A DNA stretch of 64,000 nucleotides from Paraphaeosphaeria minitans (Eukaryota; Ascomycota; Dothideomycetes; Pleosporales; Didymosphaeriaceae). Numbering within the stretch: the first letter of the stretch is position 1; each line of letters begins with the position of its first letter. This document shows, one piece after another, positions 1 to 53,726 of this stretch. Location: the NCBI GenBank assembly GCA_015832175.1, contig WJXW01000019.1:186001-250000 (forward strand). The letters are read 5' to 3'. The notes under the pieces are model-generated. The model worked only from the letters and a program-made list of their open reading frames with translations. It searched no databases and had not been told where the DNA came from. Made by a program: the position numbers and the translations under genes.

Positions 1-93
1 CCCAGCAACTGATCCGGCTCGCTGCGGCCACTCTGGGAGTACCTCTAGCATCCGCCTAGGTCCCCCGCGCGACGCGTAAGGGAGCTTAATAGG

Positions 94-1749
94 ATGGTAG
101 AGTCTCCCTCCTCCCACCACACGGGGTCCCCAGACCCCGAGTCCCCTCAGCAGCTCAATACCAGCGCCTCAAGACGGCTCCAGAAGGACGTGCACCACCC
201 GGCACCCCCGCTGAGCAGTCAGAACCCCGGTGGGGGCGCTCCCAAACCTCGAGTCTCTGACGCCGTCCAACGCCACATCACCGAGACCCAGCAGACCACC
301 CAGCTATGGAACACCATCACTGCCGCCTTCGCAGCAGCCGTAGATCAACACGCACAAGGCTACACTAATCCTCAAGAAGCCAATATCGCAGAGGAGCTGC
401 AGCAGAGAGTCATCCATGCCCTGACCTCCCTCTCCCCAAGCAACTCCCCTCCCAGCTCCCGCTGGAGCAGCGACGCCGGCTACAGCAACTCCAGGAGCCA
501 GGAATCAGGACGCCGCTCCTGGGCGGACGTAGCCAGAGACCCCCAAAACTCGAATAGGGGCATCAGTCGACCCCTGATCGCTGCTAGGACGCGGCCCGCC
601 CCGCTAGCTAAGCCAAAAGAAGACAATCGAATCTTTATAGCCATCTCTAACCCAGCAATGCGACTGCAACAACCATCACCATTTGCAGTAAGGCAGGCAA
701 TATGCAAGAGCATAGGAGGAATCACCCTCAAGGATATACCTACTGCATCACCTATCAATACAGGCTGGGCAATTACCCCAGCTAACCAGAATATCCGGGA
801 ACAACTCCTAACGCAAGAGAACCAGGTACTTATAGTACAAGCGCTAGACGGAGACGCGATCAGGATCCCAGAACGCTGGATCAACTACGCAGTGCAAGGA
901 GTACCCAGCTCTTTTCGGACCCTAGACGGCACAGAAATACCAACTACTACCCAGCTGGTCGCGGAAGAGGTATGCTCACAAACAGGCAAGCAGCCCGTCA
1001 GCTGCAGGACCTCACGGCACGGGGTGAACCAGAATGGCCTCACTACCTGGATTATCTCATACAAGCAGCCAGTCCGCTCATTCCAGCTTTTTGGCACGAG
1101 CCAATTCTCAAAGGAAATCCACAAACGTCCAACTATACAGCGACATGACCCAGGCTGCCAGGGATACTGCAACGCTGCACGCTGTACCCGAGTAGCCCGC
1201 TGTGCGCACTGCGGTGACCGTACGGACCGACACCAAGGACAGCACGGAGACAGTTGCCCCCACAAAGCTATGTGTGCCAACTGTCACGGCCCTCACCCAG
1301 CCAGCCACTCCAACTGCCCTGCAGCCCCTCGTCGGGTACACGGACACATAAGCAAGCCTACAAAGACTGAGCTAAAAGCCATCCGCCGCGCAGGCAGGAT
1401 AGCACACAAGCACCTCTACGGAACAGTCGAAGAGACCCTGAGACAGGCCACACTTCAGCCTGATTCCACTCCACCAGAGGCTCCTCAGGAGACAACGACA
1501 CCCCAACCTACTACTCAGGAGCAAGCAGCACAAGCTACACGTACCAGAACAATCAGTGCCTCCCACGTACCTTCATCCGCTACCAGCGGAGAAAAGAGAC
1601 CAAGGCGGGCAGCCACGGGCAATAGAAACCTCAACGTCCGGCAAATGTCTGCCAAAAGCTTGCAGCCACGACCCACTATCTACACTGACCCGTCTACCTC
1701 AGAGAGAGAAGACACCAGCATGAGCGATGACCCACCATCGACATGCTAG
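94..1749 (+). CDS. LINE ORF1, gag-like RNA-binding protein with zinc knuckles
   Basis: The 551-aa protein is the ORF1 (gag-like) product, which binds element RNA to make the retrotransposition particle. The N-terminal 170 residues are Ser/Pro/Gln-rich and look disordered. A Cys/His-rich block sits at residues 350-410: a first partial knuckle, a CAHCGD knuckle, and CANCHGPHPASHSNC, a clear CX2CX4HX4C type. The tail is basic and Pro/Thr-rich. The ATG at 94 is the first in frame. The stop overlaps the start of ORF2 in the string ATGCTAG, so ORF2 is probably translated by termination-reinitiation or leaky coupling (inference). No frameshift is visible. Confidence 0.85.
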   Translation: MVESPSSHHTGSPDPESPQQLNTSASRRLQKDVHHPAPPLSSQNPGGGAPKPRVSDAVQRHITETQQTTQLWNTITAAFAAAVDQHAQGYTNPQEANIAEELQQRVIHALTSLSPSNSPPSSRWSSDAGYSNSRSQESGRRSWADVARDPQNSNRGISRPLIAARTRPAPLAKPKEDNRIFIAISNPAMRLQQPSPFAVRQAICKSIGGITLKDIPTASPINTGWAITPANQNIREQLLTQENQVLIVQALDGDAIRIPERWINYAVQGVPSSFRTLDGTEIPTTTQLVAEEVCSQTGKQPVSCRTSRHGVNQNGLTTWIISYKQPVRSFQLFGTSQFSKEIHKRPTIQRHDPGCQGYCNAARCTRVARCAHCGDRTDRHQGQHGDSCPHKAMCANCHGPHPASHSNCPAAPRRVHGHISKPTKTELKAIRRAGRIAHKHLYGTVEETLRQATLQPDSTPPEAPQETTTPQPTTQEQAAQATRTRTISASHVPSSATSGEKRPRRAATGNRNLNVRQMSAKSLQPRPTIYTDPSTSEREDTSMSDDPPSTC

Positions 1750-4700
1750 AACACCCCAACAACACCCCAGCCTATAACGGGCAACAACAGCCCAGTCTAC
1801 CAAGCAAACAGCTACGAGTATGCTGGGCCAATGTCGGCAGGAGCTCTCCCTGCCATATCACCATACTAGAAGTGGCCTTTCAGAAGGGCCTGGATGTTGT
1901 GTGCGTGCAAGAGCCCTTCACATGTGCCAACTCAAGGACCTCTACCCACCCTGGCTTTCGGCACCTCGCACCGATCAGCACTTGGGACACTCCCACCGCA
2001 TCGGGCTCAGCGCGCCCTCGGGTGATGACGTATATCCGGAAAGGGTACCACCTAAGACTCCAGACTAGAGAAAGTCTCAACCATCCAGACCTGCTATGGG
2101 TTGTTGTGAACGGAGTAGCAATACTCAACTGCTATAGACAGCCACTTACCCCTGACGTACTTCAATACGTCACGCATCTCACGCCTCCCCAACACTGCCT
2201 TGTGGGAGGTGACTTCAATGTCCGACACGAATCCTTTGAACCGGCTGTCACCGCAGCCAACGGCGGCATAGAGCTTGCCAGGTGGGCGGCCGCCGCCTCC
2301 ATGGACTACATTGGCGTGCCAGGGCAGCCAACGCACTGCGCTGGTCATGTCCTTGATCTGACCTTCTCTAACATCCCATTCGCCCAGTCGGCTGTCGAGG
2401 CCAGCATGCACAGCGGATCAGACCACGAGACGATAGTGACCTCTATCCCCACTTCCGCACTAGGTACTCCGCACCTAGCTCAGTACCACTACAGAGTCCC
2501 AGAGGCAAGCCTACCAAAGTTTGCCGGTCTGATAGAGATAGGCGTTCAGGGTATCCCAGACCCGCTTGCGGCGCAAGATACAGCACAACTAGACAACTGT
2601 GTGTCGCTACTGACGGAGACAATACAACAGTCTGTACGAACAGCAGGCAGGCCTGATCGCAAGGAAGGACGCGCCGCACCATGGTGGACTGAAGAGTGCA
2701 AGACTGCTTACCAAGCCTACAAGCGCGCCAGACAGCTTTACCTAGGCAGCCCTCCATCAGAAGAAACACGAGCTTTCAAGACAATAGTTAGACAGGCTAA
2801 GAGACAATACTGGAGGCACGTTATTGACAACGCCAAGGACGATAAGGACCTGTTCAAGGTCATTGCCTGGCATAAGCTTACGCCGGAGAACCAGGAAACC
2901 CCCCTTATAGTCAACGATACGACTATCTATGACCCCCTGGAGAAGGCAGAGGCACTCAGAGAGGAAGTTCTCAACCGGTACACAGCAGAGGATGACCTCA
3001 GACAATGCCCAGACCAGGAGGCCGCAGCCACTCTCCCCTGGAGCACATATATCTCACTTGAGGAAGCAGAACGAAACACAATAGGGGTCTCTAGCACCTC
3101 ACCAGGTACTGACCGGTCCACTGTTCGGCTGCTCCGCGCCTGCTGGGCTCATGTTGGAGAGCTTATACGAAGGATCTTCCAGCAGTGCCTAGAACTCAAC
3201 CACTTCCCAGCATATTGGAAGCTCGCGGAGGTGGCAATGATACCCAAAGTAGGGAAGACAGACCGGAGGTCACCCCGATCCTGGAGACCAATAGCACTCC
3301 TATCCTGCATTGGGAAAGGCCTTGAACGAACAGTGGCCAGAAGAATTGCATGGACTGCTATGACGCACAAGATCCTTAGTCCCCAACATGGCGGCGCCCT
3401 CCCAAAACGCTCTGCAGCCGATCTGACCGCAGCGTTCACCCATGACACAGAAGCCGCGTGGGCACTGAATCAGCACGTTACAATGGTTACCCTAGATGTG
3501 CAGGGCGCCTTTGACGCTCTCCTGAAGAACCGTCTGCTGCACCGAATGGTTGAACAGGGATGGCCGCAAAGGACTATCCTCTTCATAGACTCCTTCCTTA
3601 CTGCTCGAAGGGTCCAAGTTCGCCTTGGCCAGGTCACCACCCCCAGCTACCCTGCCGCCTGCGGGACGCCCCAAGGGTCGCCTCTCTCCCCGGTCCTGTA
3701 CACGCTGTACCTGGCAGAGCTGCTATCCATGGACATAGAACGGAGATTTGGATACGCCGATGACATATGCCTATACCGGGCCTCGCACTCCCTAGATAAC
3801 AACGTTGAGCTCCTAGCAGCAGATCTAAGGCAGATCAGAACGTGGGGCGCAATCAACAAAGTCACCTTTGCCCCAGAAAAGCAGGAGATGATACACCTAA
3901 CGAGACAGCGAAGCAGCTATGCCCCACTCTGTGTCGTAGACGAGCACCTCACGATCCACCCAATCCTCCCAGGTGGAGAACACTGCCAGCCAGCCCTGCG
4001 GTGGCTAGGAATCTGGTTCGACCGCAGACTAACTTTCAGACGACACGTAGCTATGCGCGCCGCAAAAGCCGCCAAGGTAGCCCACCACATCCGAAGTCTA
4101 GCAAGGACCACTTGCGGACCACCAGCCAGCTCTCTCCGCAAGGCTACCATTGCCTGCGTATACCCGTCCCTTCTGCATGGGACAGAGTGCTGGTACAGGG
4201 GCCGCACCAAACCGCCGCGAACACTCAAGCCTGGCAGACCGCCAGAGGTGAGCGCTTATGTTGGCTGGCATATAGCCGCTATAGATAAGACAATCGCTAT
4301 AGCAGCAAGAGGTATCCTACCGGTGTGGAGGACGACCCCAACAGCCACACTATTTCGAGACGCTGGATTACCCTCCGCCGCAGTGGCGCTGGAGGAAGCC
4401 AAACTCAGATATGCAACCCATCTTCGTGCTATAGACTCAGATCACCTCCTTACCAACCGTGCGGTAGTCCCTATAGTAAATAGAGGCAAGGGAGCCGGAA
4501 AACCTCAGAGAATCCAGACAAAAGTCCAGCAGCTAGGGTCTCTTCTACCAGAGATTCCTAGGACTGAACTGATAGCCCCTCACTACTCGCCTGGATGCCG
4601 AACCGACCCAACACTCGGCATAGACAAGAAGACTGCAGCCAAGTCCTTCAAAGAATGGTGGGCTCAGCTCCCACCATTAGATGTCACTATCTTCTCAGAT

Positions 4701-5579
4701 GGCTCTGAACAGTACACAAAGGAAGGAGAAAAGCGGGTCACCTACGGCTACGCAGTGTATCAGAATGGAAGACAACTACAGAGCGGCCGCGGGTCACTAC
4801 ATCCTACCTCGCATGTGTTTGACGCGGAGGTAGTCGGAGCGTGGAGAGGCCTCCAGCACACGATAAGACAACCAGCGCTTAGTACCCGCCGAATCTGGAT
4901 GTGCGTAGACAGCACTTCAGTAATATGGGGCCTTAGAGGCGTCGCGCCTTCTACCTCTCAATGGGCCTTCCTAGCATGCCACGGCGCTATGGAGACACAC
5001 GACGTCTCTATCAAATGGGCCCCTGGACACCTGGGTATCGAGGGGAACGAGACGGCTGACAGACTAGCTAATCAGGAAGCCCAGCACCCATCGCCACCAA
5101 CCGGGAAAGCTGCTGTGCCCACACTCTCAGGCATCAAGTCAGTTGCTCGCAAAGTACTACGAAGCATACAACAGATTTGGTGGGCAGACAAGAAGACAAA
5201 ACTCTCTAGATGGTATAAAAGCTGGGAGCTGGACTACGCACCACGCCGTGGACCAGGAGAACTAGACCTACCCAGAGCTGTATTGGCTAGATTCCTATCT
5301 ATCCGCTCTATGCACGGAGACTTTGCCTGGTACCATCGGAAGTTCAATCACAACGACGCGAACCTCACCTGCTCATGCGGACGCGATAAGACGCCAGAGC
5401 ACCTTGCGCTCTGCCGCAAGACCCTAGGGGCCTTTGGCCGATGGCCGCTTCGACCACCCGCACTACCATCCAGCCGGGCTGACGGCCTGGCGTATACCGC
5501 GGCGCTGATAGGAGATCCAGAGGCCTTCGAAGCCTTTACCCAGCTCACACAGTACTATACTAAGGTTTGTCCTCGGTAG
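1743..5579 (+). CDS. LINE ORF2: APE endonuclease, reverse transcriptase, RNase H
   Basis: The 1278-aa polyprotein has the full Tad1-type domain order. Residues 25-235 are an AP-type endonuclease with a QEP glutamate, GDFN and SDHE catalytic motifs. Residues about 490-770 are the reverse transcriptase, with a LDVQGAFD block, GTPQGSPLSP, and FGYADD as the active-site box. Residues about 985-1120 are RNase H, starting at FSDGSEQ, with a later E, a DST block and a WAPGHLGIEGNETAD block carrying the last acidic residue. A C-terminal CSCG...H...C zinc-binding motif follows, as is usual in this clade. All catalytic boxes are present and the frame is open, so the copy is potentially competent. The start overlaps the ORF1 stop by 7 bases. 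Confidence 0.9.
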   Translation: MLEHPNNTPAYNGQQQPSLPSKQLRVCWANVGRSSPCHITILEVAFQKGLDVVCVQEPFTCANSRTSTHPGFRHLAPISTWDTPTASGSARPRVMTYIRKGYHLRLQTRESLNHPDLLWVVVNGVAILNCYRQPLTPDVLQYVTHLTPPQHCLVGGDFNVRHESFEPAVTAANGGIELARWAAAASMDYIGVPGQPTHCAGHVLDLTFSNIPFAQSAVEASMHSGSDHETIVTSIPTSALGTPHLAQYHYRVPEASLPKFAGLIEIGVQGIPDPLAAQDTAQLDNCVSLLTETIQQSVRTAGRPDRKEGRAAPWWTEECKTAYQAYKRARQLYLGSPPSEETRAFKTIVRQAKRQYWRHVIDNAKDDKDLFKVIAWHKLTPENQETPLIVNDTTIYDPLEKAEALREEVLNRYTAEDDLRQCPDQEAAATLPWSTYISLEEAERNTIGVSSTSPGTDRSTVRLLRACWAHVGELIRRIFQQCLELNHFPAYWKLAEVAMIPKVGKTDRRSPRSWRPIALLSCIGKGLERTVARRIAWTAMTHKILSPQHGGALPKRSAADLTAAFTHDTEAAWALNQHVTMVTLDVQGAFDALLKNRLLHRMVEQGWPQRTILFIDSFLTARRVQVRLGQVTTPSYPAACGTPQGSPLSPVLYTLYLAELLSMDIERRFGYADDICLYRASHSLDNNVELLAADLRQIRTWGAINKVTFAPEKQEMIHLTRQRSSYAPLCVVDEHLTIHPILPGGEHCQPALRWLGIWFDRRLTFRRHVAMRAAKAAKVAHHIRSLARTTCGPPASSLRKATIACVYPSLLHGTECWYRGRTKPPRTLKPGRPPEVSAYVGWHIAAIDKTIAIAARGILPVWRTTPTATLFRDAGLPSAAVALEEAKLRYATHLRAIDSDHLLTNRAVVPIVNRGKGAGKPQRIQTKVQQLGSLLPEIPRTELIAPHYSPGCRTDPTLGIDKKTAAKSFKEWWAQLPPLDVTIFSDGSEQYTKEGEKRVTYGYAVYQNGRQLQSGRGSLHPTSHVFDAEVVGAWRGLQHTIRQPALSTRRIWMCVDSTSVIWGLRGVAPSTSQWAFLACHGAMETHDVSIKWAPGHLGIEGNETADRLANQEAQHPSPPTGKAAVPTLSGIKSVARKVLRSIQQIWWADKKTKLSRWYKSWELDYAPRRGPGELDLPRAVLARFLSIRSMHGDFAWYHRKFNHNDANLTCSCGRDKTPEHLALCRKTLGAFGRWPLRPPALPSSRADGLAYTAALIGDPEAFEAFTQLTQYYTKVCPR

Positions 5580-6866: not shown

Positions 6867-7065
6867 ATCTATTAGATGCATAATTCTGGGAAAGCTTGGC
6901 GCGCATCGTCGATTTTCCCCCCACCACACTAATTATATAGAGCGTCGAAATTGGTAGATGCCGCGCCCGCCGCCCCGCCCACGCGCCGTTTACGGGTCAG
7001 GTAAGTTGAGGTCGTAGATTCACGCGCATAGAGGCTATACTGACTTTCTTGGTGTTGCAGTTGTC
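6867..7065 (+). repeat. Left terminal inverted repeat with promoter and 5'-UTR intron
   Basis: The repeat starts ATCTATTAGATGCATAATTC and matches the reverse complement of 10346-10545 over almost its whole length, with a handful of substitutions and 1-3 base indels. It contains a TATA-like AATTATATAG at 6931, a C-rich leader and then an intron at 7001-7060: donor GTAAGT, branch-like CTGAC at 7040, acceptor TTGCAG. The transposase ATG at 7079 follows 18 bases after the acceptor. An upstream ATG at 6958 would be out of frame with the transposase after splicing, so the leader is read as non-coding. Confidence 0.85.
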
Positions 7066-7078
7066 ACCAACGCGCCAG

Positions 7079-8206
7079 ATGGCCGCCCATCGCGCCCACG
7101 GCGTTCGGACATCTCTATCAGCCCTTGAACCACCTCCTGCTGGGCCCTTCTACGCTGCCCATGGTCTGACAAACTTAAAGAGGCTAGAAATTAATCGGTA
7201 TCTCTGCCTAGGTTGGCATGAGCAGGAGATTGCAGACCAAGTTGGTTGTTCAAGACATGCTGTACGCAATGTCTATAATAACATCATAACTACTGGTTGT
7301 GTACGGAAGGCTCTTACTGGCAAGCTTGGGCGTCCTCCAAAACTAGCAAAGGAAGACTCACTTGCTCTCCGCGGTGAGCTACTACGACATGGCTGGATGT
7401 ATCAGGACGAGATGGTATGGTGGTTGAGCGTTGAGCGTGGCATCTTTATCACTCAGTCCACTATCAGTCGCCTGTTGAAGAGAGAGGGCTGGAGTCGTAA
7501 AACGCTGCGCCCATACGCCATTGACCGCAATGAGGAGCTCCGTGGTTACTACCGCGATTCTATGAGGCGGTATGCTGCAGAGGATGTTGTATTCCTTGAT
7601 GAATCTATCTTCAACGAGAAAACTGGATGGAGGCATCACGCCTACGCTCCTATCGGTGAAGAGATGCGCTATACGCAAGACATAAAGCGTGGTAAGACTT
7701 GGGCCATCTTGCCAGCGTATACTGTTGATGGGTATTTGCCGTGTACAGGCATCAAGGAGGGCTACTACAGCCGGGAGGAGTTTATTGAGTGGGTGGAACT
7801 GGAGCTTATACCTGCTCTACGAGTCAAATTTAGTGGACGCCCAGTTGTTATTGTACTTGACAATGTCTCTATCCACACGAACAACGACGTGCCACGTCTA
7901 CTCCGCGACGCTGGGTTTGTAGTACGATACCTGCCGCCGTACTCTCCTGACTACAATCCTATTGAGCTTACCTTTGCCGTCTTGAAGGCATGGATCCGGC
8001 GTAACTACTGCTATATACGGACACGTTTTCCAGGAGATAGTGGCTTTGGCGACTTCTTGCGGGCAGCAATTGCAGAAAGTGGCTGTGATAGATTTGCAAG
8101 AAAGCACTTTCAACACGCTGCTGGAGGTCTCTATATGGAGCAGACAGTGCTAGATGGTCTCCATGATCAGCTGAGGCTTGAGACAGACTTTGCCTTTGAG
8201 GAGTAG
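7079..8206 (+). CDS. IS630/Tc1-type DD34E transposase
   Basis: The 375-aa DDE transposase would cut and paste the surrounding element. The N-terminal third has helix-turn-helix folds (WHEQEIADQVGCSRHAVRN; then a GRPPKL linker and a second winged-helix region with TQSTISRLLKREGW). The catalytic core shows VVFLDES for the first Asp, VIVLDNVSIH for the second and PDYNPIE for the Glu, with 34 residues between the last two (DD34E). All three catalytic residues are present and there is no internal stop. The ATG at 7079 (GCCAGATGGCC) is preferred because the upstream in-frame stretch begins inside the TIR intron. The gene converges on the 652-aa gene, with 125 bases between their stops. Confidence 0.9.
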   Translation: MAAHRAHGVRTSLSALEPPPAGPFYAAHGLTNLKRLEINRYLCLGWHEQEIADQVGCSRHAVRNVYNNIITTGCVRKALTGKLGRPPKLAKEDSLALRGELLRHGWMYQDEMVWWLSVERGIFITQSTISRLLKREGWSRKTLRPYAIDRNEELRGYYRDSMRRYAAEDVVFLDESIFNEKTGWRHHAYAPIGEEMRYTQDIKRGKTWAILPAYTVDGYLPCTGIKEGYYSREEFIEWVELELIPALRVKFSGRPVVIVLDNVSIHTNNDVPRLLRDAGFVVRYLPPYSPDYNPIELTFAVLKAWIRRNYCYIRTRFPGDSGFGDFLRAAIAESGCDRFARKHFQHAAGGLYMEQTVLDGLHDQLRLETDFAFEE

Positions 8207-8331
8207 GATATCACGTTCTATACTAATTCATACTCTATATCATACAAACAGCTTGCTTTTAGGTATCATATACTATATATTGTTGCTGGGGTATCATGTT
8301 GAGGTAGAGATAAACAAAGAAACTTATAGGA

Positions 8332-10343
8332 CTACTCCGACCCGCCACGCGCGCGGTAAGCTGGCTTGAACAATCGCAGCTCCTCACGGAGGTGGCGGAT
8401 AACACCATCCTTTAGTCCAAAACCCATCGCGATTGTGTATAGATCGCCTTTTGGGTTGGACATTGCTCGGATATCCTCAACTGTCCACCTCTGATCTATC
8501 GCGACGCGCGCCGCCTCGCTGTAGTCCTCCTGGTCATCCTCTGGCTGCTGGGCAATTAGCCACTGAAAGAACTGCCTCACGACTGTCCTGTCGTCCGCGC
8601 AACCACGCCCAGATACAGGGCTTGATGACACTGGGGAGCGGCGAGATGCCGTATACCTGGCGTTTGTGGTATCGTTTGTTGCCGCGAGAGGCCAGATGCT
8701 CGGGGCTGGTGGAGGAGGAGCAGGAGCAGTAGAAGGTGGCCAGGTATAAGCATGAGCTGGCAGCTGGGGTGGCAGGAAGTATGACTGTTGCTGCTGTCGT
8801 CGCCGGGTTTCCTCTACGCGCCATGCTCTATCAAGTCTCTCAGCCTCCCTCCGCTCGTCTCTCTCTCTCTTTTCATCCTCCCTCCGCTCCCTATCAGCCT
8901 CTCTCCTTGCCTCTCTATCTTCACGCGCGTCCTCCATCTGTCGGGCGCGATCTTCTGCCCTAGCACGCTCTGCCTCTAGCTTTGCGCGCTCCAGGTCCCG
9001 ACGGTACTGTTGAATTGAGTCACCTGAGGAGTCGGACCCCTTATGTAGCTTCTTCCGATTATTTGGATTACGCTGGAGCTTATTACCAACCTCCCTCCAG
9101 TGCTGGAGTAGCTTAATAGGTGGACTTTCAACACTGACGTTAGTCGTACCAATAACTATCTCTTGAGCCCAAGCCTCCATATCAACAGCTTTAATTTGGT
9201 AGTGGGCCATCTGACCAAAAGGTACATAACAATAGCCACCTCTGTTGGTACAGACAGCCTCCTCTGTACAACGCCAGCGGTTATTAATTGCCCCTACGTG
9301 GTCATGCGCAGTCCGGATAGCCTCAACTTGGGCTGCACGACGCTCTGCCTTTTCCTCTGCCCTCTTTATCATGCGACCTTCAACTATCTGTTGCTTTGTT
9401 CGATTGCCAGCTGAGGACTCAAGCGCAGTCAAGATCTCTAGCTTGTCAGAGGATGGCTCGTTAGCGTACTGACTGCGCGAGAACGCCCTCCCAATTAAGT
9501 TGCACTCTAGCTTCTGTTCAAGCCTCATCTGCACAAGTTCAACTGGAGACCGCGCGGAGAGGCTGACGACATGCCTATCAACATTGTCCAAAAAGGATAT
9601 GCTAACGTCGTCACCAAAGTCTTCAATCGTCTCAGCTTTCCAGATAGCTCCTCGAGTTATCGCCCGATAGGATAGTGACGTGCAGCGTATTGTATAGTCT
9701 CTGCCTTCAATTCCAGAAGCCTTGCTGCTCCTCATCTCCTCCACTTTATCCTCAAACGCTGACAGCCATAGGTCCTCTCGACTGTAGGTTTTCTCGCTTC
9801 GGACAACAAATTTTGAGTTCACGCGAACAGTAAAGGAAACCTCAATTATGTACCTAAGTATAGGTAGTCCTGTAACAACTTGTGGCTTAGGAGCTATTTC
9901 AAGTTCAATAGGTGGTGGAGACGACTGGAGGCCTTGAACTAGCTGGATAGTTGGTGATGAGACTTGCAAGAGTTCTGCTATATTGGAGTAAGGCAAGCTC
10001 TGTGTTGGACGATAGGGCGGTGTCTCAGCCACTTCAATAATAACAGGAGGAGTAGCAGTAGTAGGAGCAGTTTCTACTAGTGCCGCCTGTGCCTTTGTCT
10101 TCGTGACACGCGTCTTTTTAACCGGCCTTGCTGGCGGCGATGGTGTTCTAGGTGCAGCTCCTACACTATGGAGTAAGTAGGTATCTAACTTATATGGCTT
10201 ATAACCATCTTACGCCGAGATCTTGTAGCTCTAGCAGCTTTAATAGCTCTAGACTTATGCGCCGTGTTGGCAAAGCGGTCTGCGTGCTCTTCTAGGTTCC
10301 GTAGCGTAATGGGCGGGAGCCGCTGGCGGCCTGGGGGACGCAT
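8332..10343 (-). CDS. Element-encoded 652-aa protein of unknown family
   Basis: I do not recognise this family. The gene has two coding exons, 10214-10343 (starts MRPPGRQRLPPITL) and 8332-10160. They are joined across a 53-bp intron at 10161-10213 (donor GTAAGA, acceptor TGTAG) whose phases match exactly. The protein has a basic N-terminus, a Pro/Thr-rich linker and a folded-looking region at about residues 110-400. That region contains a CTNRGGYCYV motif with Cys and aromatic residues. A very charged Glu/Arg coiled coil follows at about 430-515, then a Pro-rich stretch and a C-terminal helical domain. It shares the TIR promoter/leader design with the transposase and so is probably co-expressed. 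It may be a DNA-binding or accessory transposition protein, but that is a guess. Confidence 0.75.
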
Positions 10344-10345
10344 GT

Positions 10346-10545
10346 TTGATAGCTACAACACCAAGAAAAAGTCAGTATAGCCTTATACGCGTGAATCTAC
10401 GACCTCAAGCTTACCTGACCTGTAAATGGCGCATGGGCGGGGCGGGCGCGGCATCTACCAATTTCGACGCTCTATACAATTAGTGTGGTGGGGGGAAAAT
10501 CGACGGTGCGCGCCAAGCTTTCCCAGAATTATGCATCTAACAGAT
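10346..10545 (-). repeat. Right terminal inverted repeat with promoter and 5'-UTR intron
   Basis: This is the inverted partner of 6867-7065. Read on the minus strand it has the same order: TTAGATGCATAATTCTGGG end, a TATA-like AATTGTATAG, a C-rich leader, then an intron at 10353-10414 with donor GTAAGC, CTGAC branch and TTGTAG acceptor. The start codon of the 652-aa gene (10343) lies 10 bases after the acceptor. The conservation of both splice sites in the two repeats is direct evidence that they are used. Confidence 0.85.
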
Positions 10546-11324
10546 ACGGTACCTACTACCGTAAGTGCTGACAGAAAATCCGCGCGAAGTGGGGCGGGAC
10601 GGTATCTTGAGAACGACAATATACGCTTTAGACTGATTCCAAGTGCTTACCCCCTGCTTGTATCTGCCGGATGGTCATGTGAATTACTGTTATATGACAG
10701 TCCTCGAATGCCGGAAAGCTCACAAGATCTGTGCCTTTGCGGTGCGACTGCCACCCCTAATAGTGTTTGTGAGGTGTTTATATACATATCACGATGCATA
10801 TATTCACTCTCCACTCAATTCGTGCTTTACTGGCTAGATCGAATTGCTTCCACCGTAAAGAAAAGCCTCGTGTGATGGAATCTACCTATTTTATCGTCGC
10901 AATCGACGCACAATCCACACTCCTTGTTAGTTGATAGGTCGTTTCCGGCACGAAGGGTTTTCCGTCTCTGAGTGTATCGGCACAGGTTGAGCGACTAATC
11001 TGTATGGAGTCCGAGAACACTCAGAGGCATATGGGAGTGCGTGAGGGCTCAGATGGATCCCCAAATCGATTGCTACCTAACTTATAGGCCTCGCACGAAA
11101 GGATAAAAGAAAACTTACCAGCTATATAGAGTTAAGTCCAACCTTCATACCTGGCAGAAAGGAGATAGCCGAGGTAGAGCTTCGGTTAGAAGACCCTCCG
11201 TAACGTGTTCAACCTACAACGTGCTCTCCCACTCATCGCCTTCCATTCAGAGACCCTTTTGCATAACGACGAACTTGTGGAGGAAGCCTGATTCGGCCTA
11301 GCTCTCACGTGATAGCGCATAGCG
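10546..11324. other. Intergenic stretch, no supported gene
   Basis: Between the transposon and the RAD54 relic I see only short reading frames without recognisable motifs or plausible splice sites. Confidence 0.5.
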
Positions 11325-16533: not shown

Positions 16534-17536
16534 TCAACCCGCTCAGAAGGCCTACGTCGCGTACGGGATGATATTCCGATAAAGCTATGGGCAGTCGCTT
16601 CAATAAGCTTCTGGGAAAAAGCAGCCTTCTGGGGCTTGTAAGTAAGCTACATTCGTATGTATACAATCTTATGTACGATAGGACGGCACCTTGGCAGAAT
16701 TACATGCAGCATCCCCCCGGATTGCTCGCGAACAAACACCTGGTGCACTTGGCTTGGGGCAGGTGAAAGCTACGCGTATCTACTGCGCCTTTTACATTGC
16801 CTACTATGTCTCTCCGATGCTTTTCGCTATCCTCTCCGACTCGTGCCGAGTCCTGCTCGCGTTCATCGTGTTCTACATCTGCTTCGATCAGATGCAGAAC
16901 AACCTAATCTCGCAATCCGCGCAGATGGAAACCAGCGGCACTCCGAACGACATGCTTTCGGCCATGAACCAAGTGGGTTGCATCCTCTTCACGCCCTTCA
17001 TACACCATGTCATCTATCCACTGCTTCACAAGCGTCATATATATCTCCAGCCGATCACGCGCATCACTATCGGGTTCGGGTTTGTAGCGTCTTCGATGGC
17101 ATACACTACAATCGTGCAGAACGTTATCTACTCTTCTGTTCCATGCTACAACCATCCACGAGCGTGCAGTTCGGTCGCAAACCGCGAGCCAAATCACGTC
17201 AATGTCTGGATCCAGGCACCAGTGTTCTTCCTCATTGCCATGGGCGAGGTATGGGCTTACGTCACGGCGCTTGAGATCGCTTACAGCCACGCTCCACAAA
17301 ACATGAAGGCCATGATCCAGGCCATCTTCCCACTCATGGCGGGGGTTGGATCAGCGGCCGCAATGGGCCTGACGACGTTGGCTCATGACCCAAATCTCGT
17401 GATCTTGTACGCTGCGTTAGCTGGTGGGATGGCAATCACTACGGTCGTCTTCTGGCTCTTATTCCACAAGCACAACAGTGACCACGCCGGGAACAAGAGC
17501 GATGTATCTGTGGGTTTCGCAGGCACTCCGTCCTAA
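16534..17536 (+). pseudogene. POT/PTR2-type peptide transporter, rearranged relic
   Basis: This is a proton-coupled oligopeptide transporter (POT/PTR) fragment. The N-terminal part is readable as EGLRRVRDDIPIKLWAVASI up to an intron at about 16639-16681. The next exon begins TAPWQNYMQHPP and then changes frame to give TPGALGLGQ near 16740. Soon after ILSDSCR (about 16845) the protein jumps straight to VLLAFIVFYICFDQMQNN, so a large middle portion, roughly 200 residues judged by family length, is missing. From there the C-terminal half is intact to 17536, with a long extracellular loop and the last helices, ending AGTPS. One frameshift plus the internal deletion should abolish transport. Confidence 0.75.
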
Positions 17537-31194: not shown

Positions 31195-32651
31195 ATGGAC
31201 TCATTCGATACGGATACAAAGACGTCTCCGGTCGTCATCGAAGATGAGACTGCGATGCGCGCGTGTGATCCCGACGCTGTCCCAGGGATACTGGATGGGA
31301 TGCTAGAGCACCGAGAACAGCCCCTTATTCAAGGAGAAGTGTTGCTTGCTAAAGCCAGGGAGCTTGTCAGAGCCCTCGAGTCCCCACGCGAGACAATGGC
31401 CAAACATCTCTGGGCCCAGGTGCGCCCAGAAAGCCCAATCGATCCATCAACTAACCCGTATCTATGGCATAAGCCTAGTTGCCTCGCCGCCATAACAGCG
31501 TGCCACGAGATAGGTGTATTCCAAGCGATGGCCAACGGAGGAGGCCAGCCGCTGAAGGTTACGGATATTGCATTCAGCGTAGGGACCAATGTCCACATGC
31601 TCGGTAGGCGTTTACAGAACGATACGTTTTTCGGAATTCTTAACAGGTGTAGGTCGCCTCTTGAAGCACATCGGGGCCATGGGCTACATCAAAGAGACAG
31701 ACGCTGACACGTACGCGCCGACCAACTTCTCCAACGCCTTGACCCTTCCTGTCATAGGCGATAGCTACCTCTGTTTGTACGTTTTGCCCTATCCGACGAA
31801 TGGTCACGAGTAACACGAAAGATAGTGTGAAGGGCCTTTTGCCCGCAAGTGTCCACTTTCCCGCGTACTTGACACAGACAAATTATGCGACCCCGACGGA
31901 CGCTCGGTCAGGCGCCTTCCAATCCGCGTTCAAGACGGAAAAGAACATGTTCGAATTTCTGAACGCGCACCCGCCTTTGAGCGAGCAGTTTCATAGCCAC
32001 ATGGGCGGTTACCGTCTTGGTCGGCCAAGTTGGATGGATCCTGGGTGTTATCCCGTCGAAGAGAGGCTACTAGAGGGTTTGACTGAGGTTGATGATATTC
32101 TCCTGGTCGATATTGGCGGATCCTTGGGTCATGATCTCCAGGAATTTGCGTACGTCAGCAGCTCGTCTTCCCATGCTCCTACTGACACGAGAGTTAGCAC
32201 GAAATATCCCGACGAGCCCGGCCGCCTGGTACTGCAGGACCTCCCAGTCGTTATTGACGCAATTGAGTCGCTTCATCCGAAGATTGAGCGCATGAAGTAC
32301 AATTTCTACACTGAACAGCCCGTGAAGGCTGCCCGCGCGTACTACTTGCACTCGATCCTGCACGACTGGCCAGATGAGGTATGTAAGACCATTCTAAAAC
32401 AGGTGGCAAGCGCCATGAAGCCAGGGTACAGCAAGCTGCTCATCCACGAGAACATCATTCCGAGCAAGGGTGCGGAGTGGGAGGCTACTGCGCTGGACAT
32501 CATGATGGCTGCTATGCTTTCGTCCAAGGAAAGGACTAAAGACGAGTGGTATGCATTGCTGGAGGCACCCGAGTTGCGGCTGAAGATATCGTATATCTGG
32601 GAAGTGAGTGGTGCAGAGAGCCTCATTAAATTGCACAAGACTCAGGGATGA
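31195..32651 (+). CDS. SAM-dependent O-methyltransferase, intact, four exons
   Basis: The exons are 31195-31603, 31647-31776, 31826-32149 and 32198-32651. The introns are 43, 49 and 48 bp and all phases match, giving 438 aa. The N-terminal helical part is the dimerisation domain. The SAM-binding motif I is LLVDIGGSLGHDL, and HSILHDWPDE carries the His that acts as general base in plant- and fungal-type O-methyltransferases. PGYSKLLIHENIIPS and DIMMAAMLSSKERT complete the fold. Enzymes of this type usually methylate phenolic hydroxyls of secondary metabolites. The gene converges on the P450 next to it, which supports a role in a biosynthetic cluster (inference). Confidence 0.85.
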
Positions 32652-51566: not shown

Positions 51567-53726
51567 ATGGCTAAGGGCAGTCCTAATGGTGGGGAGAGCG
51601 CTTCTCTCCAGTCTAACGACACACGAAGCCTTTTAGACGTTGTCGATAATCTCCGCTCACAAGGAATTAGTCGGTATGTCGATCTTCCAGAGATCGTAGT
51701 ATGCGGAGAACAATCCTCTGGCAAGAGCTCAGTCCTTGAAGCAATATCGGGGATGCTTTTTCCCAGCAAGGACAACCTCTGCACAAGATTCGCGACTGAA
51801 TTGATACTTCGCCGTGGCCCTGTCGCACCTATCAGGATACGCATTGTCCCTGGATCAGAGGAAAATCGGACAGACGCCGAAATAGCGAGGCTGCTAAACT
51901 TCAACGTCTCCGTTTCTGCGGAGGATCTTGACCTAGGAGATGTCATCGAGTCGGCGAAGAAGTGCATGGGGATCAATGATGACACGAAGGTTTTCAGCTC
52001 GGACATTCTTCGACTGGAACTCTCCGGCCCGGAACAACCACATTTGACCCTTGTCGATCTGCCTGGATTGTTCGAAGCAGGCAGCCGTTCGCAATCCGAC
52101 TCCGACAGCGACACAGTCAAATCCCTCGTTCTCCGATATATGAGAAGTCCGCGGACATCATACTCGCCGTGGTATCCGCCAAGAACGACTTCAACAATCA
52201 GTCGAGTACGAGATACTCCCGCCAGATTGATCCGAGAGGTGTACGTACCCTAGGCTTGATTACTAAGCCCGACACTTTGCACGAAGGCTGTGGCAGTGAG
52301 TCCTTCTACATTGAGCTTGCGCAGAACAAGGAAGTCAAATTCAAGCTTGGATGGCATGTCCTCCGCAACCGCGATTATACTACGAGGAACTCGTCTTTGC
52401 AGGAGCGGAACCGTACTGAAAAGCTGTTCTTCTCTTCTGGTGCCTGGGGATCCTTGAACTCCTCCCAAGTTGGACTGCACAGCTTGAAGTCTCGTCTCAG
52501 CAAGATTCTCAGAGACCAAATCCTAGTACAACTACCTGATGTTCTTTCTCAGATTCAGGGCGGGATCTGTGACTGTACGAGAAAGTTGGAAGCCTTAGGG
52601 ACACCTAGAGCTACTGTGCAAGAACAAAAACGCCATCTTCTCACAGTCAGCCAATCTTTCACCTACCTTATCATAGCCGCCGCTGACGGAGAATACTCTG
52701 ACTCGTTCTTTGGGGATGCTTCCACCCATGAGGGATATCAAAAACGTCTAAGAGCTAATCTGCGGAATGTTCTGACCAAGTTTGCGGATACGATGCGCGA
52801 GCAAGGTCATACGTATGACATCGTTGACCAAGTTTCTACACAGTACCCTCGTCAAATTTCCCGAGAAGACTATATCACAAAGTGAACACGCTTCTATCGC
52901 GGAGTAGGGGACGCGAACTACCAGGAACATTCGGACCGCTCATCATTGGACAACGTTTTCTCAAACAGCGTAAGCCCTGGACACGTTTGGTCAAGGAAAC
53001 AATGGAAGAGGTTGTGCATGCTGTCCGTCACGTGTTGTATGCGGCACTGTCACATGTATGCAATCCTTCTACGCGAGAAGCTATCTTGATGTGCATCATC
53101 TACCCCAAATTAGACCGTTTGGAGAAGGAATTACAAGAGAAGGTCATTGAGCTTCTTAAGCCCCATGATACTAGACACCTTATCACATACAATCACTATC
53201 TTACAGATAATGTCCAGAAAGCGCAAGCGGGACGTCGTATGCGCGAGATCAAGAAAACACTGGAACGATTTTTCGGTGACGATTATACGAACCTTGGGAC
53301 GGTTAAGCTCAGTGTGAACGTTGACAGCTCGACCAAGCTTCTCGTGACAAAGACTGAAGCAGACATGAACATCTATGCCAGTTCTACTGCTACAGACTTC
53401 ATGCAAGCCTATTACAAGGTAAGACAGACCATACTGTCCCACAAAGTACATTTTGCTCACACCAATAGGTGGCACTGAAGAAGTTCGTCGATGATTTCAG
53501 TGTCCTTGCCGTCAAAGCACGTATTTTTGAGCGCCTCCCAGCCCTATTCTGCCCCGAGAACGTACTGGACATCAAAGACGAGATGGTAGCCACACTAGCT
53601 GCTGAGGATGAAGAGTCGTCAGTAGAAAGAGAGCGCTGCTGTGAAAAGCTCAAGGTTCTCGAGAATGGGCTGAGGGAGTTGAAAAGCGTGCAGGAGCATC
53701 CGTCACTTCACTACAAAGGGAAGTAA
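51567..53726 (+). CDS. Dynamin/Mx-like large GTPase, two apparent frameshifts
   Basis: This is a fungal dynamin-superfamily GTPase, a membrane-remodelling or defence-type GTPase. The G1 P-loop is GEQSSGKSS, G3 is DLPGLFEAGS, and G4 is LITKPD. The middle/stalk region and a C-terminal GTPase effector domain (GED; LERERC-type helix near the end) follow. A phase-0 intron lies at 53419-53468. The frame breaks twice: near 52146, where SADIILAVVSAKND can be read only after a one-base shift, and near 52880, between DYITK and VNTLLSRSRG. Each is explained by one missing base in a short A or G run. The coding is otherwise well preserved over 700 residues, so assembly error is a real alternative to pseudogenisation. 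Confidence 0.75.

Follow-up and report, generated by a model that had tools for sequence, protein, structure and literature searches.

A young two-gene IS630-related transposon of Paraphaeosphaeria minitans with predicted leader introns at the inner ends of its long inverted repeats

The window analysed here, a stretch of 64,000 nucleotides (nt) of the fungus Paraphaeosphaeria minitans (Ascomycota, Pleosporales; contig WJXW01000019.1) lying on C19, contains at 6867–10545 a young, mobile DNA transposon of 3679 base pairs (bp), counted with the AT of its target duplication at each end (6867–6868 and 10544–10545). The element as a whole is given no strand; its two terminal inverted repeats, one on the transposase side (6867–7066, + strand) and one on the ORF2 side (10347–10545, − strand), enclose two convergent genes, an IS630-type transposase (7079–8206, +) and a second open reading frame (ORF), ORF2, whose coding exons 1 and 2 lie at 10214–10343 and 8332–10160 (−). 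The two stop codons are separated by a gap of 125 bp (8207–8331, no strand).

The repeats had been announced as near-identical and about 200 bp long, and their two arms are indeed 92% identical, although not evenly so. The outer tip (6867–6931, +, mirrored at 10481–10545) is the same at 63/65 positions from arm to arm, is also the part best conserved in relatives, and would serve the transposase as its recognition site. The promoter and leader part that follows (62/69) contains the box TATATAG (6934–6940, +), a candidate promoter element, and at the mirror position TGTATAG (10472–10478, −). A TATA-like box had been claimed for both arms; it is present as TATATAG in one of them, and the TGTATAG of the other is not conserved in the diverged relative L035 described below. 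The leader is C-rich, as announced, with 40–47% C over the last 45 nt preceding the splice donor.

At the inner end of each arm the original prediction had placed a GT-AG intron with a branch site, close to a start codon, and these motifs are found in both. On the transposase side the predicted leader intron has 60 nt (7001–7060, +), with CTGAC at 7040–7044 and the acceptor GTTGCAG; on the ORF2 side it has 62 nt (10353–10414, −), with CTGAC at 10371–10375 and the acceptor GTTGTAG. The introns agree at 57/63 positions from arm to arm, and beyond the acceptor, up to the ATG, the identity falls to 7/18, so that the repeat ends at the splice acceptor. From there 18 nt remain to the transposase ATG (7079) and 9 nt to that of ORF2 (10343). 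With so little room, 9 and 18 nt, between the repeats and the coding starts, a promoter belonging to the element can only sit in the repeats. The pattern GTAAG-N33-50-CTGAC-N10-22-YAG has two matches in the window, one per arm (7001–7060, +; 10414–10353, −), for a chance expectation of 0.76 matches over the entire window; two matches anywhere were obtained in 17 of 100 shuffles. Neither leader intron contains an ATG and both proteins start downstream, so that splicing would leave the proteins as they are and change only the leader. We considered a coding leader exon and rejected it: the ATGs present upstream would all be out of frame with both genes once the leader is spliced. Judged from the sequence, promoter activity, splicing at the leader introns and co-expression of the two genes are predictions.

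The transposase, of 375 amino acids, has the DD34E triad that had been foreseen (D174, D261 and E296, with 34 residues separating D261 from E296), invariant in 16/16 aligned rows. It matches DDE_3 in Pfam (3e-33), exceeds the curated cut-off of the NCBIfam IS630 transposase family (143.5 bits for a cut-off of 100) and finds Sleeping Beauty as its sole match in the PDB. There are 656 homologues at E<=1e-5, and the organisms named among the 120 listed are all fungal (Paraphaeosphaeria, including P. sporulosa, Lipomyces, Lindgomyces, Rasamsonia and Talaromyces); the NCBI match is PMIN01_12093 of P. minitans. The DD34E-type DDE_3/IS630 transposase and the terminal inverted repeats are those of the IS630-Tc1-mariner group. 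The duplication is not TA: the empty sites that were read show AT in 3/3 cases, and the copies have AT at either end. Therefore we call the element IS630-related by its transposase, and not a standard Tc1/mariner. The Mutator transposase domain (MURA) was absent from the Pfam result, which reported DDE_3 instead, and the duplication is of 2 bp, not the 9 bp of Mutator; the two convergent genes are a layout of the MuDR type, in which the repeats would here have a promoter role. PIF/Harbinger and ISL2EU are two-gene elements with a DDE transposase domain of their own; neither domain appears in the Pfam result, where DDE_3 is the only DDE domain.

The second gene stands as claimed, convergent and without a family found, except that it needs a further intron of 53 nt (10161–10213, −, GTAAGA...TAG) to yield its 652 amino acids. 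The protein has a basic N-terminal part, a Cys/His motif, a charged stretch and, towards the C terminus, a part that is conserved in L035. Its NCBI match is PMIN01_12092, and the splice joint agrees in two NCBI models, PMIN03_012863 (652 amino acids) and PMIN01_12092 (581 amino acids, a deleted form), labelled P0121 and P0122. Pfam, NCBIfam, PHROGs and the PDB gave no family for it, with weak chance matches only. Two protein searches returned P. minitans proteins only; the first scored 7995 candidates picked among charged low-complexity words, the second 196 candidates with residues 310–430, and both need shared words of five residues, so that distant relatives may be missed. In the genome ORF2 has 9 matches, 8 in the six copies of the element and 1 in L035.

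These six copies were obtained by the search of the fungus's own genome that had been proposed along with the original prediction: four are on C15 and two on C19, and 6/6 possess the two genes as well as the two long inverted repeats, all 12/12 arms being recovered. Four copies are full length. The other two (L037 and L038) lack the ORF2 segment corresponding to 8877–9089 of the window (−), i.e. 213 bp or 71 codons in frame, with the 9-bp sequence CCTCCCTCC at both edges. The copies differ from one another at 27 substitution sites, and there is a stop codon in the transposase of L039 and another in ORF2 of L038. Apart from L035 and L036, a remnant, the genome search found no solo repeats or miniature copies.

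The flanking DNA is not alike between copies, except for L039 and L041, whose flanks are shared; six copies therefore represent five distinct insertion sites. For each site the flanks were joined and matched to unoccupied paralogues in the same genome. Exact unoccupied paralogues exist for both deleted copies, and two paralogues at 98% for the copy of the window. The empty sites that were read base by base, representing 3 of the 5 insertion sites, have a single AT in 3/3 cases, while the filled sites have AT at both ends. The fourth site has an 87% match spanning the junction, and for the fifth the joined flanks found no unoccupied match. The limits of the element, with AT at each end, were set from the copies, their differing flanks and the empty sites. 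As L037 and L038 occupy different sites, the form with the deleted ORF2 has itself moved. The element is probably autonomous.

A diverged relative, L035 (C19:526500-531800), retains the convergent arrangement, with a transposase 54% identical and an ORF2 C-terminal part 34% identical in amino acids to those of the window element. Its left end is rearranged, the ORF2-side repeat and ORF2 exon 1 being followed by the transposase leader; L035 is in this sense chimeric, the ORF2-side end with exon 1 standing directly upstream of the transposase leader intron. In a tree of 45 rows its transposase and the one from Paraphaeosphaeria sporulosa form a group. Compared with the window, the ORF2-side arm of L035 is conserved at 60/65 positions in the tip, 47/70 in the promoter and leader part and 53/64 in the intron; both the tip (p=0.0003) and the intron (p=0.047) are better conserved than the middle. 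On the transposase side the intron is identical at 48/65 positions and its flanks at 8/20 and 10/25 (p=0.0007). These tests treat sites as independent and use alignments that we made ourselves. Donor, branch site and acceptor are retained in both arms of L035.

The association of two genes is found again in family 2, present at eight places on C15, C19 and C20, of which six copies were fetched (L042–L047). Its transposase is 35% identical in amino acids to that of the window; its repeat is perfect over 29 bp, with weaker similarity further inward, and its start codons lie 143 and 144 bp from the tips (L044). A convergent ORF2 is open past 500 amino acids from its ATG in 2/6 fetched copies. The ORF2 proteins of families 1 (that of the window element) and 2 are similar around a motif W-R-C...C...H-Y...W-A: BLASTP gives 6e-5, and the Smith-Waterman score is 70, where the highest of 2000 shuffles scored 61. 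We chose the core and tail stretches that were submitted to these shuffle tests. As L035 has retained ORF2 and a similar gene stands in convergent position in family 2, ORF2 is no chance passenger; that it might prove an accidental insertion, which would have undone the original prediction, does not fit with its presence in 6/6 copies, in L035 and, as a similar gene, in family 2. In family 2, the 3 fetched copies in which the two ends are present show TA at each of them; in the window element the duplication is AT.

The layout of two convergent genes is also that of L079 (VBAU01000402.1), an element of 3021 bp with 48-bp repeats that are 96% alike. Its ORF2 is not significantly similar to those of families 1 and 2, neither in the core (score reached by 267 and 193 of 2000 shuffles) nor in the tail (by 460 and 962 of 2000), and for this reason we count L079 for the layout only. 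The contig is filed in a Bacteroidetes metagenome bin, while carrying an apparently complete eukaryotic two-gene transposon with intron-split genes; it is probably eukaryotic DNA, and an error of binning is likely. Viral contigs, when searched directly with the window transposase and with the family 2 ORF2, yielded no relative of either. With the transposase alignment as query, 18 viral-contig loci were obtained, together with the best 80 of 491 relatives in the genome collection. Out of 98 loci, only L079, which had the best E-value, was read as an element, and 20 of the other 97 were put in the tree; both ORF2 proteins searched against all 98 gave a best E of 1.7. The 45-row tree places L079 and family 2 between the clade that includes the window element and the bacterial IS630 rows, which form their own branch (99/96); the supports at the forks are 99/96, 81/76 and 94/99. 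The two-gene layout is found in distant parts of the tree, and an ancestral origin and a repeated gain are both possible.

From the anatomy, the copies, their empty sites, the recurring layout and the retained splice signals, all of which are observed, we come to a reading that we hold to be probable, with considerable reserve: a recently mobile transposon whose repeats combine the end used by the transposase with a matched expression cassette, ORF2 being an accessory protein long associated with the lineage. The outer ~65 bp of each repeat would be recognised by the transposase, and the inner ~135 bp would form a portable cassette made of promoter, C-rich leader and short leader intron, feeding the gene that begins a few bases further in. 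Both repeats being inverted copies, the two messengers would receive the same leader and the same control, and transposase and accessory protein would be made together at any landing site. An accessory role is the most likely one that the sequence suggests for ORF2: its protein may bind the ends of the element or the transposase and so help transposition. The original prediction of one symmetrical cassette holds for the layout from the end to the start codon, less so for the promoter, the TATA-like box not being conserved in L035. More tentatively, and at rather less than even chances, the two-convergent-gene IS630-type lineage of eukaryotes would be old and widespread with a Cys/His protein as its standing partner, the repeats of one fungal branch having become matched cassettes for the joint expression of both partners, a parallel to MuDR reached independently with a different transposase.

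Several observations speak against the reading of a cassette served by an accessory protein. No purifying selection is visible in the differences among copies (7 nonsynonymous and 2 synonymous in the transposase, 11 and 2 in ORF2); this is expected for young copies, and for this reason these differences give no support for function. Copies minus 71 amino acids of ORF2 have moved, so that this part is dispensable, at least in trans. Between families 1 and 2 the C-terminal parts of ORF2 show no significant similarity, the score being reached by 331 of 2000 shuffles, and hhalign of the thin ORF2 alignments gives a probability of 2.7%; the first row of the alignment, P0121, has Arg where the window ORF2 has its first Cys. 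Concerning the leader, the NCBI model of the transposase has 264 amino acids and starts inside the gene, lending the leader no support. The TATA-like box is missing from the L035 arm, the remnant L036 clearly keeps the acceptor block and shows no clear donor, and family 2 has no comparable intron in both arms. The leader introns look like a speciality of the branch of the window element.

Instead of helping, ORF2 could regulate or repress transposition as a means of self-limitation. We find this unlikely, albeit worth keeping in mind: the movement of copies deprived of 71 amino acids would suit a regulator, and the second protein of MuDR is given as of unknown function in the account consulted (PMC3276141), but the recurrence of ORF2 with deeply split transposases is what one would expect of a component that the element requires, even if a regulator might be retained as well. 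In another reading, which we find rather improbable, the transposase or ORF2 would bind at the conserved blocks inside the repeats; the resemblance to splice signals would then be incidental and the leaders unspliced. Long repeats with internal sites are known in other elements; here even L036, which shows no clear donor, retains the 3' block TGGTGTTG[CT]AG, and neither protein needs splicing, the introns having no ATG and the starts being downstream. On the other hand donor, branch site and acceptor are kept jointly, at intron spacing, in both arms of the window and both of L035, and the repeat stops at the acceptor. Finally, the capture of an unrelated host gene by a one-gene IS630 element, which would agree with the predominance of a single ORF among the fungal Tc1/mariner elements of the reports consulted (PMC4112212; PMC2836289), is very improbable and largely refuted, as 9/9 genomic matches of ORF2 lie in copies or L035 and none outside elements, its position and orientation are the same in L035 and family 2, and the proteins of families 1 and 2 are similar.

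The copies of family 1 that were found are confined to C15 and C19 and the places of family 2 to C15, C19 and C20, which together hold about 5% of the 47.45-Mb genome and may be accessory, repeat-rich chromosomes. In the right flank of the window element, 10554–10621 correspond to the final 68 bases of an element of family 2, and only a few bases separate the window element from this piece of a distant cousin. Just upstream, 49–5579 is a non-LTR (long terminal repeat) retrotransposon with two ORFs, the second with endonuclease, reverse transcriptase and RNase H. A repeat of about 110 bases adjoins two insertion sites (L039 and L040) and recurs nearly unchanged on C8, C9, C15 and C20, for instance at C15:1011143-1011253, C8:995180-995293 and C9:1930786-1930896. 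Elsewhere in the window, ORFs match a POT-family transporter (16682–17533), an O-methyltransferase (31758–32648) and a dynamin-like protein (51983–52882).

IS630/Tc1 elements are textbook one-protein transposons with short repeats, and the window element is an unusual version of this well-known class. The conserved second protein, the long repeats and the AT target raise the question of what the second protein adds, and also of how one repeat could serve both cutting and expression. The introns predicted in the repeats would allow a clear RNA test, in a host that is culturable and used in biological control. The novelty first claimed was overstated, since ciliate elements and MuDR precede this one; the fungal IS630-type two-gene element with introns inside its repeats was not met with in the literature searches, whose scope did not include Repbase, as far as the sources they returned go.

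Among ciliates, Tec, TBE, Sardine and Anchois are described as IS630/Tc1 elements with extra ORFs (PMC7325037, PMC3464196), and for these and Thon the extra ORFs go partly with long repeats (PMC7325037, PMC3464196, PMC3408717). The likeness lies in the IS630/Tc1-type DDE transposase accompanied by additional ORFs, in the long repeats of Tec, Sardine and Thon, and in a zinc-finger ORF in TBE. The ciliate elements, as these reports describe them, have three or four genes, the window element two, and no tyrosine recombinase was seen in the latter, unlike in ciliates; its repeats end in introns beside both start codons and its duplication is AT.

Closer to the fungus, Trem elements of Paracoccidioides (PMC2836289) and those of Cochliobolus (PMC4112212) are Tc1/mariner elements which likewise have a DDE transposase between terminal inverted repeats. 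As they are described there, their repeats measure 27–70 bp with a TA duplication, for about 200 bp and AT here. The potentially active Cochliobolus copies are reported with a single ORF (PMC4112212); TremE and TremF are reported with two, TremE having a hypothetical protein of 217 amino acids (PMC2836289), and we set these second ORFs beside ORF2 by their description only. As to bacterial IS630, the window transposase passes the curated cut-off of that family, and the bacterial rows form a separate branch of the tree; unlike them, the window element has eukaryotic introns and a second gene.

The terminal repeats of maize MuDR are similar in length to those of the window element, and its target duplication is of 9 bp. 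In MuDR, as it is described, convergent transcription of the two genes is driven by promoters that the terminal repeats carry (PMC3276141). The window element shares with it a transposase gene and a second gene converging from the terminal repeats, the promoters there being those described for MuDR. Its transposase is unrelated, having matched DDE_3/IS630 only, and it differs further from MuDR by a duplication of 2 bp and by the leader introns predicted in its repeats.

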